Part shown: positions 45,411 through 49,608 of the stretch, in pieces | Position numbering within the stretch: position 1 is the stretch's first letter | How the letters are laid out: every line of letters begins with the position of its first letter | Assembly (NCBI RefSeq): GCF_025602895.1 | Contig: NW_026516409.1 | Span: 1-54,479 of the forward strand | DNA length: 54,479 bases | Source of the DNA: Polychytrium aggregatum | Taxonomy: Eukaryota > Chytridiomycota > Chytridiomycetes > Polychytriales | Direction of reading: 5' to 3' | Notes under the pieces: model-generated | Seen by the model: the letters and a program-made list of their open reading frames with translations, nothing else | What the model was told of the DNA's origin: nothing | Databases searched by the model: none | Made by a program: the position numbers and the translations under genes

Positions 45411-45837
45411 TCGATCGCCGCGCGTCATCAGTCGGAATCTTCGAACCTACCTTCCGCCGCCCATCATCGATTCGAGATGCAGCACAGCTTATTAGGACTA
45501 CCTACCATATCTTGACCATTGAATACATGTCCACTGCGACTGATCCTTGACTCCTGGCGACAGACCTCGCTGTCAGGCTTGATAAGGCCTCGTGGGCAAG
45601 GCAAGCCATCGTAATTTAGCTCTGGATCATTCCATGACTGAAGATGAGCCATAGTTCAGAGCAGGTCTCATCAATGGGTATCTGATTGAGTCGTTCTTCA
45701 GCAGTTGCTATGCCAGTCGCCGTCGACAGGCTTCTGTTGGACCAAGTGGCTGTCAGTCACGCGTGACACTGATCCCATAGATCAATCTTCATGGCCAAGG
45801 ATCGATCTACGCATCATGACCAGCAATGATTACAGCG
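45411..45837. other. Intergenic spacer between the Ugo1-like gene and the Fanzor transposon
   Basis: No gene, repeat or RNA feature is recognised. The TA at 45838-45839 is the presumed target of the adjacent transposon. Confidence 0.6.
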
Positions 45838-45839
45838 TA

Positions 45840-45858
45840 TCCACCAAAAAACGGGACA
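45840..45858 (+). repeat. Left terminal inverted repeat of the Fanzor transposon (shortened)
   Basis: TCCACC followed by AAAAAACGGGACA. Compared with the right TIR it lacks about 10 nt including TTATTCAG. Confidence 0.65.
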
Positions 45859-45915
45859 CCCAGGGTTTTGACCATTGATCAATATTTTGTTACCCAATAC
45901 CATCGCGCGCTGGCC

Positions 45916-46479
45916 ATGACCATTCGCCACACAACCACTCTCCAGAGGAAAGTTTCACTCTCACTCTGCCACACTGCCCTACAGCGAGCAGGTCTCTCAC
46001 ACAAGAGTGCAACACACCTCTACAAGTCCAAGCGACTGGATGAGCGAGTGGCACAGTTCAGGGACCAGGTCCGCTCCATCGACCCACGACGATTCGTTTT
46101 TGTCGATGAGACAGGGATCAGGAAATCCATTTTCCCTCTCTACGGATACTCACCGAAGGGTGCTCCGCTTCGCCAGCGCAATCACATGAAACACAAGTCC
46201 GTCTCGGCTGCATTTGCCATCAACCACTCTGGTGTGCTGCATCGCATGTACATCCCCACATCATTCAAGACACACTCGATGGTCGAGTTCTTTGAGCGAG
46301 CGAGCTTCCCAGACGACTCTGTGATTGTGATGGACAATGTCAGCATGCACAAGACACGGGCTGTCCTGGACTGCATCGAGCGCCGAGGATGGTCAGTGAT
46401 CTTCACCCCACCTGCCTCGCCCGACTTCAATCCCATCGAGAACTTCTTTGGGGTTGAGTCCCCACCGATTTGGGGTTGA
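45916..46479 (+). pseudogene. DD34E (Tc1/IS630-type) transposase, truncated at both ends
   Basis: 188 codons from the ATG at 45916. A helix-turn-helix-like segment (ALQRAGLSHKSATHLYKSKR) precedes a DDE catalytic domain: first Asp in FVFVDETG (residue 64), second in VIVMDN, and Glu in DFNPIENFF, with 34 residues between the last two (DD34E). The first N-terminal helix-turn-helix is missing: the derivative at 49459-49608 keeps MTILRCGAT...VSKSTIHRWRSD at the matching place, where this copy jumps from MTIR to TTTLQRK. The C-terminus ends soon after the catalytic Glu, at the TTTGGGGTTG repeats. It would cut and join TIR ends if intact; this copy is very probably inactive. Confidence 0.82.
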
Positions 46480-46500
46480 GTTCCTCCAATTTGGGGTTGT
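46447..46500 (+). repeat. Short tandem repeat with TTTGGGGTTG core, three copies
   Basis: TTTGGGGTTG recurs at about 21-22 bp spacing, exactly where transposase coding sequence ends and the Fanzor upstream region begins. It may mark the junction at which the Fanzor module joined the transposase element (inference). Confidence 0.7.
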
Positions 46501-46612
46501 CCCTCCAATCAAGCCGCCATTTTCACGCCCAAATCCCTGGCTTGAACCTCTCGGCGATTTTTGAACAGGGTCGCTTCCAACCAGCCCGCAAAGACGGGTT
46601 CCTGCTCTCGGG

Positions 46613-46618
46613 TATAAA
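46613..46618 (+). promoter_or_regulatory. Candidate TATA box of the Fanzor gene
   Basis: TATAAA, 130 bp upstream of the Fanzor ATG, in the stretch between transposase and Fanzor. It suggests the Fanzor has its own promoter. Confidence 0.45.
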
Positions 46619-46747
46619 TGTCCCACCTTCGTCCTGCTGCTTTCTTCCCTCACCTCGCCTTGATCGGATCATCGCGCTATTGTACGATAAAAAAAAGTCT
46701 CTGCTCTGACCAGTACCACTGGCAGGCACCCAGCATCCTCTGCCCCC

Positions 46748-49111
46748 ATGCCTCCGAAGCGTAAGGGTACCGGTAATGGCCAGCCTCGGCCACCCAGGCC
46801 CAAGAAAGCCAAGTCACAGTCGGAGCCTGTCTCTGGTTCGTATTCTGATCCCACGCATGCTTGGTCGTCTGTTGCTCCGTCGCTCACCACCACTGCTTCT
46901 GCAGATCCAATGGATGTCGATCCCACCGAGCCTGGTCCCTCATCTGGTCCTGTCAAGCGATGTCCCAAGTGCGACGGTACCGACCACGAGCGAAGCAACA
47001 CCAACAGGTGTCCCGAATATCACCCCCTCAAGAGTTCTGTCGTCCCACTCGTGGATGGAAGGTCATCTGCCCCTCAGTTCAGCTGCTTCAAGCAGACGAT
47101 GGATGGCTGTTGTCTCAATCCCGCTCTCCGCGACAAGATCCAGGCCACCGTCGAGGCCATGACCCAGATCCAGTTCGAGGCATCCAGGCTGCTCAACCTG
47201 CACATCCTCCGGTGCATCGAGCAGGATCTTCCCGTCCCCGTCATCTCCAAGTCCACCCCTGCTTTCATCCGCCAATGCTTCAAGATCGTCCAGGACGGTG
47301 CGCTCTCCCCGACCAGGGACACCAAGAAATACAACGAGCATCTGGTCGCTTCCTTTCGCGACTATCAGACCACTCGGCACGCAGACCTGCCTCCGGCCCC
47401 TCGTCTGCCTGATGGTGCTCACAGTCAGCTTCTCACACTGGCTGTCAATGCCTATGCCACCAACTGCACCACGCACCTCGATCTGGCCTACTGGCGACTC
47501 CTTCGCCGCTTCTGCGCTGCCGTCTTCCCAGCCAACAAGCACAAGCACGAAGCCATCGAGGCTTGTCTCGAGCTCTTCGAGAAACCAGGGCAGACTCCAC
47601 CCAAGGCCGATCTCGAGTTCCTCTATCCAGACTTTGGCCACGTCCTGGACGAGTTTCGGTACAGCAACGACCAGGACCGCTTCCGGGCCCTACATCGCCT
47701 CTCACACCATGTGGGAATCCTCGCCCGGGACAAGATGGTCGACAATGTCCACAAGTGGATCGACTGTGACATGCCCGCCCTCCGAGTCACCGAGCTGCAG
47801 CGCCAGGCCAAGCTGGACGAGCTCACTGCCAGAGGCATTCCCTCCGACGACAAGAGGTTCACCAACGCCAAGTCTGAGCTCGGCACCACCAAGGCCAAGA
47901 TCAACAAGCTGGCATCCAGACTCAAGTGGGCCCTCAAGCAGCTCGCTCTGGACACTCCTCCGGCCGTGTGCACGATGGTCCCTCTGTGCACTGCGAAGGC
48001 CAAGTATGTCAAGATTGACACGGCCACTCTTTGGCAACTCCTGGGTCCAAAGAAGCGCCTTGACCTCACCAGGGACAAGCTCAAGGAAGAAGGTGATGAC
48101 GGTGTCAACAACCAGGATCGTCTCTGGCGCAGTTGCTTCAAGCTGCGTAGTTCCCCCTTCCGTGACCGGGATATCAATCACAAGCTGTTCAACTACGAGA
48201 TCAGCACCGATGGCATTGGATGCACCATCGGTCTCGTCAAGTTTGTGCGTCGAACCGATCGCACCGAGACCATCGAGCCTCCTCCGACTGCCGAGCAGCG
48301 CATCCAGGCCATCGGCAACCCAGACCCCAACCGCACCACTTGGATTGGAATTGACCCAGGCGTCGGCTCCATCTTCACGGCGGTCATCCAAGCACCGGGC
48401 CACCAAGACGAGGTGGTCTCATTCTCGAATGGTCACTATCAGCACATGTGTGGCCACAGGTCCGATACTAAGTGGCACAATACCAAGAAGAAGCAGCTCA
48501 GCATCGAGACCTGGATGTCGACCACCCCCTCGCCCAAGGTGTCGTCCTCGGAGGCTTTCAAGGTCCATCTCACCCATGTCCTGCGACCGGAGCTGCGAGT
48601 GCAGCTCGACTTCCACCTTGGCAAGAAGGCCCGTCACCATCGCTTCACGGGCCACAAGAGGCGCCAAGTGGCCGTCGACAGGATGTGCAAGGCCGTCCTG
48701 AAGCACGCCCCGATACGGACCGATGTGGTCATCGCCTTTGGCAATGCGTCATGGCGTCAAGGCAAGGGCTATGCATCCAGCCCTCGGAGGCAGCGGTTTG
48801 CTCAGTACTTTGAGCAATTCGAGCACCACCGACGCCGTCCCAATCACCATCATGGAAGCGTCAAGGTGGCCTCGACGAACGAGTTCAACACCTCGCAGGT
48901 GTGCTCCAAGTGCCTGGAGCCAGTTCGGTTGGAAGGACTCGATGCGCCCAGTGTTGCGAATTCCCACTTTGTCAGGAGCTGCAAGAATCCCAGCTGCCGG
49001 ACAGTGTGGAATCGCGACGTCAATGCGGCGCGCAACATGATCACAGTATGCAGGTCGATTGTGGAGATCGGAGAGCGACCGGCGGTCTTCACTCGGAGGC
49101 TGCCAAAGTGA
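46748..49111 (+). CDS. Fanzor (eukaryotic TnpB-like RNA-guided nuclease), intact, 787 aa
   Basis: Fanzors are eukaryotic relatives of IscB/TnpB-type OMEGA nucleases that use an element-encoded RNA to guide DNA cleavage. The frame is intronless and intact. Residues 2-22 are rich in basic clusters (PPKRKG, RPKKAK), a likely nuclear localisation signal. A PMDVD motif and a zinc-knuckle-like CPKCDGTDH...RC (C72, C75, H80, C88) follow. The RuvC-I motif GIDPGVGSIFTAV places the catalytic Asp at 536. VVIAFGNASW lies in the RuvC-II region; Glu712 in NEFNTSQVC may be the shifted catalytic Glu reported for Fanzors. The zinc finger is C719-x2-C722 ... C745-x4-C750, and RuvC-III NRDVNAARNM has Asp757. 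The ATG is the first in frame after the TATA motif. It lies between transposase and right TIR, as in Fanzor1-type transposons. Activity is inferred, not shown. Confidence 0.9.
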   Translation: MPPKRKGTGNGQPRPPRPKKAKSQSEPVSGSYSDPTHAWSSVAPSLTTTASADPMDVDPTEPGPSSGPVKRCPKCDGTDHERSNTNRCPEYHPLKSSVVPLVDGRSSAPQFSCFKQTMDGCCLNPALRDKIQATVEAMTQIQFEASRLLNLHILRCIEQDLPVPVISKSTPAFIRQCFKIVQDGALSPTRDTKKYNEHLVASFRDYQTTRHADLPPAPRLPDGAHSQLLTLAVNAYATNCTTHLDLAYWRLLRRFCAAVFPANKHKHEAIEACLELFEKPGQTPPKADLEFLYPDFGHVLDEFRYSNDQDRFRALHRLSHHVGILARDKMVDNVHKWIDCDMPALRVTELQRQAKLDELTARGIPSDDKRFTNAKSELGTTKAKINKLASRLKWALKQLALDTPPAVCTMVPLCTAKAKYVKIDTATLWQLLGPKKRLDLTRDKLKEEGDDGVNNQDRLWRSCFKLRSSPFRDRDINHKLFNYEISTDGIGCTIGLVKFVRRTDRTETIEPPPTAEQRIQAIGNPDPNRTTWIGIDPGVGSIFTAVIQAPGHQDEVVSFSNGHYQHMCGHRSDTKWHNTKKKQLSIETWMSTTPSPKVSSSEAFKVHLTHVLRPELRVQLDFHLGKKARHHRFTGHKRRQVAVDRMCKAVLKHAPIRTDVVIAFGNASWRQGKGYASSPRRQRFAQYFEQFEHHRRRPNHHHGSVKVASTNEFNTSQVCSKCLEPVRLEGLDAPSVANSHFVRSCKNPSCRTVWNRDVNAARNMITVCRSIVEIGERPAVFTRRLPK

Positions 49112-49210
49112 TCTGTTTTATTTCTTGTGGCTTTGCTTGACGCAAGCACATCGCATACTACAGGTTCATGGAAACGGCTATATTGTCCCGTTTTTTTTCT
49201 GAATAAAGTG
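49112..49210 (+). ncRNA. Candidate guide-RNA (omega RNA) region at the Fanzor 3' end
   Basis: The 99 bp between the Fanzor stop and the right element end, plus the end of the ORF, form the only segment kept in all three Fanzor-derived copies of the window (relic at 38682, derivative at 49296, full copy). In TnpB systems the guide RNA scaffold overlaps the gene 3' end and the right element end, with the guide read from flanking DNA. By that analogy the guide would start near 49211. No structure was computed. Confidence 0.3.
49184..49210 (-). repeat. Right terminal inverted repeat of the Fanzor transposon
   Basis: Read inwards from the right end it is CACTTTATTCAG, then A8, then CGGGACA. The AATAAA within it (49202-49207 on the plus strand) can serve as a polyadenylation signal for the Fanzor transcript. 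Confidence 0.7.
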
Positions 49211-49295
49211 TACGATGGATTGCTGCACACCAACCTCGATTTCATTTTGACCGCTCTTGCGCAGTGGCCAGACTGGTGATCGAGTAGCCACGGTA
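49211..49295. other. Spacer between the transposon and its inverted derivative
   Basis: 85 bp with no recognised feature. It separates two right-type TIRs facing each other, so the two elements could form a long hairpin. Confidence 0.6.
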
Positions 49296-49608
49296 TACTT
49301 TATTCAGAAATAACGGGACACCACACCCGCTTTCATCAAGATGTAGTCTGTGATGAGCTCGCGTCAAACAAAGCCATGAGAAATAGAACAGATCACTATG
49401 ACAGCCTCCAAGTGAAGGCTACCGGTCGCTCTCCGTCTTCACAATCGACCTACACACTGGTATCGGAGCGCCAGCGGTGAATGGTGCTCTTGGACACACT
49501 GAATGACGGTGTAGCACCGCAACGCAGAATGGTCATAGCCAGCGTGGGTAACAAAATATTCGGCCCATGACCAAATCACCAGGGTGACCCGATTGACTGT
49601 TAACAATG
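49296..49608 (-). mobile_element. Internally deleted (MITE-like) derivative of the Fanzor transposon
   Basis: On the minus strand it starts with a degenerate left TIR (AATCGGGTCACCCT region, ~49578-49596). The transposase 5' end follows, with an intact ATG and a VSKSTIHRWRSD helix-turn-helix. At about 49459 this passes directly into the last ~165 bp of the Fanzor element: its final codons, 3' flank and right TIR (ACTTTATTCAG...AACGGGACA). Its TIR at 49296 follows a TA. It lies in inverted orientation to the full copy. The left boundary near 49608 is approximate. The arrangement equals a full transposase-Fanzor element with the middle removed. Confidence 0.78.

Follow-up and report, generated by a model that had tools for sequence, protein, structure and literature searches.

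A Tc1/mariner element with transposase and Fanzor genes

Contig NW_026516409.1 of the chytrid Polychytrium aggregatum (assembly GCF_025602895.1) carries a 3378 bp transposon of the Tc1/mariner type at positions 45833–49210, in which the remnant of a DD34E transposase gene lies together with an intact gene for a 787-aa Fanzor1-like nuclease. The contig (C121, 54,479 nt) is referred to in its entirety as the window, and all family searches cover the 64.68-Mb assembly. Here we describe the element, its family and a signature at its left ends that may record the action of the Fanzor protein. The features of the locus are as follows.

45830–45832, + strand: TTA trinucleotide formed at the left junction by the target TA and the T before it, candidate target-adjacent motif (TAM)
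45833–45860, + strand: left terminal repeat with a variable outer part and the inner part AAAAAACGGGACACC; end-pattern match at 45831–45860
45826–46479, + strand: remnant of a DD34E (Tc1/IS630-type, DDE_3) transposase without its N-terminal helix-turn-helix part and C-terminal end
46748–49111, + strand: intact Fanzor1-like nuclease, 787 aa (open reading frame, Pfam match and motifs), presumably RNA-guided
49045–49210, + strand: right-end segment including the right terminal repeat; candidate scaffold of an omega RNA or right-end element RNA (reRNA)
49184–49210, + strand: right terminal repeat, TGTCCCG...AAAGTG
49211–49212, + strand: TA target duplication, right side, from the junction coordinates
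49213–49232, + strand: predicted guide, the right flank after the TA
49294–49600, − strand: older inverted copy with an internal deletion, made up of a left end and a Fanzor-side right end and about 80% identical, immediately next to the element

The DDE_3 transposase with its DD34E triad, the TA duplication and the terminal inverted repeats (TIRs) place the element in the Tc1/mariner (IS630) group. A preliminary description made from the window alone had proposed TIRs and flanking TA dinucleotides, both of which are present, yet its limits for the TIRs are ruled out because other copies extend further out. The inverted arms of 13 bp are exact by inverted repeat comparison, but they form just the inner portion of longer imperfect ends. 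Judged by the other copies, the true ends are CAG from 45833 and GTG up to 49210, with TA pairs at 45831–45832 and 49211–49212. Most other copies are likewise bordered by TA at either end.

The transposase reading frame matches DDE_3 in Pfam with an E value of 3.9e-22 and contains the triad D94, D170 and E205, with 34 residues separating D170 and E205. Relative to copy L004, approximately 246 bp encoding the N-terminal, helix-turn-helix part and approximately 140 bp near the C-terminal end are gone, and the transposase of this copy is therefore broken, as first described. A full 310-aa transposase frame with a helix-turn-helix-like N-terminus and the complete triad lies next to Fanzor in three of 14 inspected loci (L004, L007 and L014). 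A shortened form ending in ENFFGVESPPIWG is common to many copies; thus a defective transposase lineage has been amplified, presumably by intact transposase acting in trans.

The Fanzor frame matches the Pfam family Cas12f1-like_TNB (PF07282) with an E value of 6.4e-9, better than the family cut-off. It includes TDG at residues 487–489, DPG at 536–538, E712, the zinc-finger cysteines C719, C722, C745 and C750, and D757. Reading frame, Pfam match and motif positions agree with the initial view of an intact nuclease bearing RuvC and zinc-finger motifs. D536PG, E712 (in TNEFNTS) and D757 are each present in 19 of 19 Fanzor copies, and T487, D488 and G489 are unchanged in 12 of 12 aligned copies. 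Following the names given to the DPG, displaced glutamate (Ealt) and RuvC-III aspartate motifs in the excerpted text of PMC10711439, E712 would be Ealt by its position, and TDG is tentatively placed in the WED domain.

Pairwise comparison of 19 Fanzor copies (171 pairs) gives a median ratio of nonsynonymous to synonymous substitutions (dN/dS) of 0.27, in a sample that comprises the 20 best-scoring copies minus one duplicate and is biased to good copies. Among these best-scoring copies, Fanzor has been kept under purifying selection. A protein search returned no relatives at a threshold of 1e-3, as did scans of viral and of bacterial and archaeal sequences, and a PDB sequence search gave no match to solved structures at 0.01.

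A large family with shared ends

The same ends recur throughout the genome. The right-end pattern yields 260 matches and the left-end pattern 398 with up to two mismatches, and reversed-pattern controls yield 0 each, so the ends are not chance matches. Used as a query, the Fanzor sequence gives 57 scored matches (among 1268 first-look candidates) at 93–95% identity or more, with a stop-free Fanzor frame in 49 of these copies; the transposase query gives 150 scored matches among 679 candidates. Transposase and Fanzor frames are both stop-free in at least ten copies (on C8, C68, C223, C13, C301, C257, C376, C112, C101 and C190), and full-length copies measure about 3.73 kb. Since both genes are open elsewhere in the family, their pairing is genuine and a broken transposase is not the rule. 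Given these copies and the loci that retain a 310-aa transposase, the initial suggestion of a Fanzor that may persist independently of its transposase is not supported.

Short, Fanzor-less copies, here termed ghosts, are abundant. Thirteen were chosen from the lists of end matches and fetched; they fall into size classes of about 283, 312, 384 and 1114 bp and share deletion points. All 13 retain both ends of the joint element and at least the last 168 reference positions including the TA, and all are deletion derivatives of it. The initial claim that a single transposon holds both genes is borne out by these copies and by the many others in which the same ends enclose transposase and Fanzor. 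No case was seen in which the TIRs enclosed only the transposase and Fanzor had been inserted independently. We also considered a Fanzor element nested within an unrelated transposase element; this arrangement is ruled out because the short copies, which have deletion points in common, still possess the two outer ends.

A related subtype, B, has the right end GTTTCTTTCTGGACCGACTG and variants of it, and includes short copies as well, one of 202 bp. At L077 and L088, a left half of the subtype described above (A) and a subtype B right end lie about full-length apart, which suggests chimeric elements. Single insertion sites on two contigs sometimes hold differing element forms, as at C312/C368 (about 3.6 versus about 0.31 kb), C35/C382 (283 versus about 309 bp) and L071 (C8)/L083 (C135), with and without an internal deletion. 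The pattern resembles replacement or deletion of the contents of a site that was already occupied.

Left ends that copy the right flank

Left ends with the exact inner core number 332. Of this group, 262 begin with TAC, 37 have TA followed by a base other than C, 12 have T followed by a base other than A, and 21 have no T at the first place; 70 of the 332 are non-canonical. In the first case recognized, L005, the sequence TTTCGGTCGA follows TTA at the left end, and the same ten bases follow TA in the right flank. After L005, the right flanks of other odd left ends were predicted and then fetched, and for 11 matches with TA followed by a base other than C the left sequence was listed before its right flank was fetched.

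In this class, 10 of the 11 sites (12 of 13 matches) with a readable right flank start with one or more right-flank bases, up to 9 nt. Of 11 out-of-register sites, 5 agree with the right flank over 4–10 nt. Right flanks were unreadable at L078 (no right end in the fetched stretch), L103 and L106. The copied lengths are 10 nt at L005, 8 at L084/L087, 7 at L073/L080, 6 at L071/L083 and 4 at L076/L090 and at L044; they are 9 nt at C102/C124, 7 at C24, 5 at C68 and at C156, 4 at C157, 3 at C105 and at C124, 2 at C9/C79 and 1 at C2.

These matches far exceed expectation. Right flanks were permuted among 19 sites, a table that omits L074, L077 and L088, whose left junctions lack TA, and also L011. 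At 15 of these 19 non-canonical left ends, the first 1–10 bases after TTA copy the right flank; the remaining four match over no base (L089, L012) or one base (L107, L075). The summed match is 80, compared with a permutation mean of 12 and maximum of 51, and 0 of 20,000 permutations reach it. Outside the table, L011 copies 3 nt of its right flank. Among six TAC variants checked later, CAGTAGATC (9 nt), CGGG and CG match, CGGG being also an inherited left-end form. Seven scar sites are seen on two contigs, some with single-nucleotide differences in the flanks, and the scars are therefore not single-contig assembly errors.

Ghosts are found at several of the scar sites (C9, C105, C124, C156, C157, L073 and L076), which suggests that ghost copies were served in trans. 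The left end of L075, CTGGTCA, equals the local right flank at L073 and not its own right flank; perhaps the end shared by L075 and L081 is a scar inherited through later transposition.

Each scar can also be written as a 3–12 bp target duplication with a shortened left end. Such a product would arise if the transposase had attached a trimmed left end at a distance of several bases from the TA, thereby generating a longer duplication. Canonical mariner target duplications are TA. For the 37 in-register matches, the trim would have to equal the extra duplication every time, which is a partial point, as the search required this register by design. Trimming would also have to be confined to the left end, and the 262 canonical left ends speak against irregular integration of this kind. 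We regard it as improbable.

Copies of the left flank at right ends would be the mirror image of these scars, and none was seen in the right-end searches. One search found non-canonical right ends beside TA in two matches, which are one sequence on two contigs; in the one whose left flank was read, no copy of that flank is present. A second search returned merely four matches in which the last A is changed to G (TA to TG). Exact canonical right ends number at least 100 among the matches listed, and the proportion of non-canonical ends beside TA is 37/299 at the left and 2/102 at the right, the right total being a lower bound (p = 0.0015).

This asymmetry bears on template switching during repair of transposase-made gaps, the main rival to a role for Fanzor. 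Tc1/mariner excision creates breaks at the element; if a heterozygous site lost its element and the left broken end copied a few bases of the empty homologue before switching to the element on the sister, an identical left-end product would result and Fanzor would be unneeded. Internal deletions of the kind that aborted gap repair typically leaves are abundant, in keeping with such events. However, template switching should act equally from the right broken end, and mainly because the mirror scars are missing we judge it unlikely, though less so than irregular integration. It also sets no limit on copy length, whereas the longest matched site has 10 nt.

Target context and a predicted homing role for Fanzor

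The insertion sites have an oriented context. TA is present at the junction in 56 of 59 distinct left flanks, and a T precedes it in 51 of these 56. On the right side, the base after TA shows no preference (C 12, A 10, T 10, G 8 in 40 distinct right flanks), and the left T bias is significant against these flanks (Fisher, 2.5e-11). An oriented motif thus lies on the side of the predicted TAM, and free sequence on the side of the predicted guide. The L003 (C25) site is inside a repeat for which 40 scored unoccupied matches span the junction. Three unoccupied paralogues that were compared have a single TA preceded by T; the T and one copy of the TA are therefore part of the target. The predicted guide of L003 would match many genomic sites, since the repeat has at least 40 scored unoccupied matches.

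TTA is found at 10 of 11 distinct ghost sites, the exception (L057) having TTA on the opposite side. This finding is what would be expected if Fanzor were a passenger or regulator, with both the TTA bias and the scars arising from the transposase and host repair, and many copies without Fanzor have still spread. Against this stand the purifying selection on Fanzor, seen in best-scoring copies, the one-sidedness of the scars, and the retention by ghosts of the right end, from which the RNA would be made. We consider this explanation very unlikely, even slightly less probable than irregular integration.

Reported properties of Fanzor1 systems guide the alternative that we favor. The excerpted text of PMC10711439 describes Fanzor1 reRNAs whose scaffold includes the TIR and target duplication and which run about 15 nt beyond, and the guide at 49213–49232 is predicted on this basis. 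According to excerpts of PMC10432273, SpuFz1 of Spizellomyces punctatus has the TAM CATA, in contrast with the TTA predicted here, and cuts 16–21 nt 3′ of it; the motif of GtFz1 is TTAAN. This geometry fits the scars, the longest copy being 10 nt. The last 87 nt of the right end (A form) fold somewhat better than shuffled sequences (z = −2.5), and other cuts give −1.3, −0.6 and 0.0; because only the 87-nt cut stands out, the right-end RNA stays a prediction. Pairing of the TIR and TA is predicted in A and some B forms.

In the mechanism that we propose, an autonomous element enters TTA sites by means of its DD34E transposase. Its Fanzor1 RNA would take the scaffold from the right end and the guide from the adjoining right flank, and the nuclease would cleave the unoccupied version of its own site, with TTA as TAM and the right flank as target. 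The occupied copy, on the sister or homologue, would then template repair of the break and thereby install the element by cut-and-copy homing. The right broken end, homologous to the donor, would be joined cleanly. The left broken end would carry TTA and a few target bases; where trimming was incomplete, these could be retained and become joined, or anneal, to the left end of the element, leaving 1–10 right-flank bases there. Scars would be left-sided and short because only the left broken end has a short tail without a match in the donor, whereas the homology of the right one is complete. A scar of this kind requires that a strand of the empty site be broken shortly 3′ of TTA and joined to the left end, and a nuclease with TTA as TAM and the right flank as guide would produce just such a break. 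Fanzor-less deletion copies, which retain the right end, would be served in trans.

That Fanzor cuts an empty TTA-plus-guide site into which the element is then copied, with a left join that is sometimes imperfect, is in our judgment probable. For the reading as a whole, in which Fanzor serves a eukaryotic cut-and-paste transposon as a functional homing nuclease, turns empty sites into occupied ones, also acts for ghosts in trans and leaves the left-end copies as a readable record, we estimate a probability of about 0.58.

Several observations weigh against this reading. The scar is a minority product, the left end being canonical in approximately 79% of cases. Right flanks are mismatched at L089, at L012 (the right junction of which has no TA) and at L075/L081, whose left end is that of L073; at L107 the single matching base is followed by agreement at three of four. 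L074, L077 and L088 do not match, the right ends of the latter two being of subtype B. The C2 match is just one base, and three of the six TAC variants miss. The right-end denominator in the mirror comparison is a lower bound. The TTA bias, equally strong in Fanzor-less copies, may be the transposase's own preference, and support from RNA folding is modest. Finally, a filled and empty pair was never caught: empty alleles were sought for 28 sites and none was found for 27, the repeat-borne L003 alone having empty paralogues.

The other genes of the window are eukaryotic, comprising a chaperonin, adenylate kinase and mitochondrial-carrier fragments, and many Ty3-type retroelements. Several Ty3-type reading frames lie in 1–37500, some as near-identical copies in opposite orientation. 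The sequence to the left of the window element is present on C121, C361 and C259, with C121 and C361 nearly identical, and the assembly seems to include redundant or allelic contigs.

The pairing of Fanzor1 with Tc/mariner elements was already known from PUl-1 and PGv-1 (Bao and Jurka, 2013; excerpts of PMC3627910), in which Fanzor and a mariner-like transposase lie between TIRs with a TA duplication, and that report includes Fanzor-only relatives with the same TIRs. Unlike these, the present family is high-copy, many of its members have both genes open, and it shows an oriented TTA context, abundant ghosts and left-end scars; scars go unmentioned in the excerpted description. Spu-1, which carries SpuFz1, is likewise a TA-flanked, TIR-bearing Fanzor1 element with ghost loci that keep the RNA end alone, but its authors found no transposase within the TIRs, according to the excerpts of PMC10432273, whereas the present family has one. 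The bacterial TnpB of IS200/IS605, guided by its element's own flank, cuts unoccupied sites and thereby promotes retention and spread (plasmid drive; excerpts of PMC11870625). That system belongs to another transposon type; here the element is a eukaryotic DDE cut-and-paste transposon and the evidence is fossil sequence. The oriented TTA context and the left-end copies of the right flank are new, and reports of such scars were not found in the open-licence PubMed Central literature.

The biological role of Fanzor was stated to be unknown in the 2023 description (excerpts of PMC10432273). Here, transposase and Fanzor occur together in one family with hundreds of ends; a TAM and a guide can be predicted for each copy, and the scars directly predict the position of the nuclease cut. 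The role of Fanzor thereby becomes testable, and the scar signature can be searched for in any genome with Fanzor elements. Helping an element to copy into empty sites, as these scars may record, is a role that has long been suspected for Fanzor.

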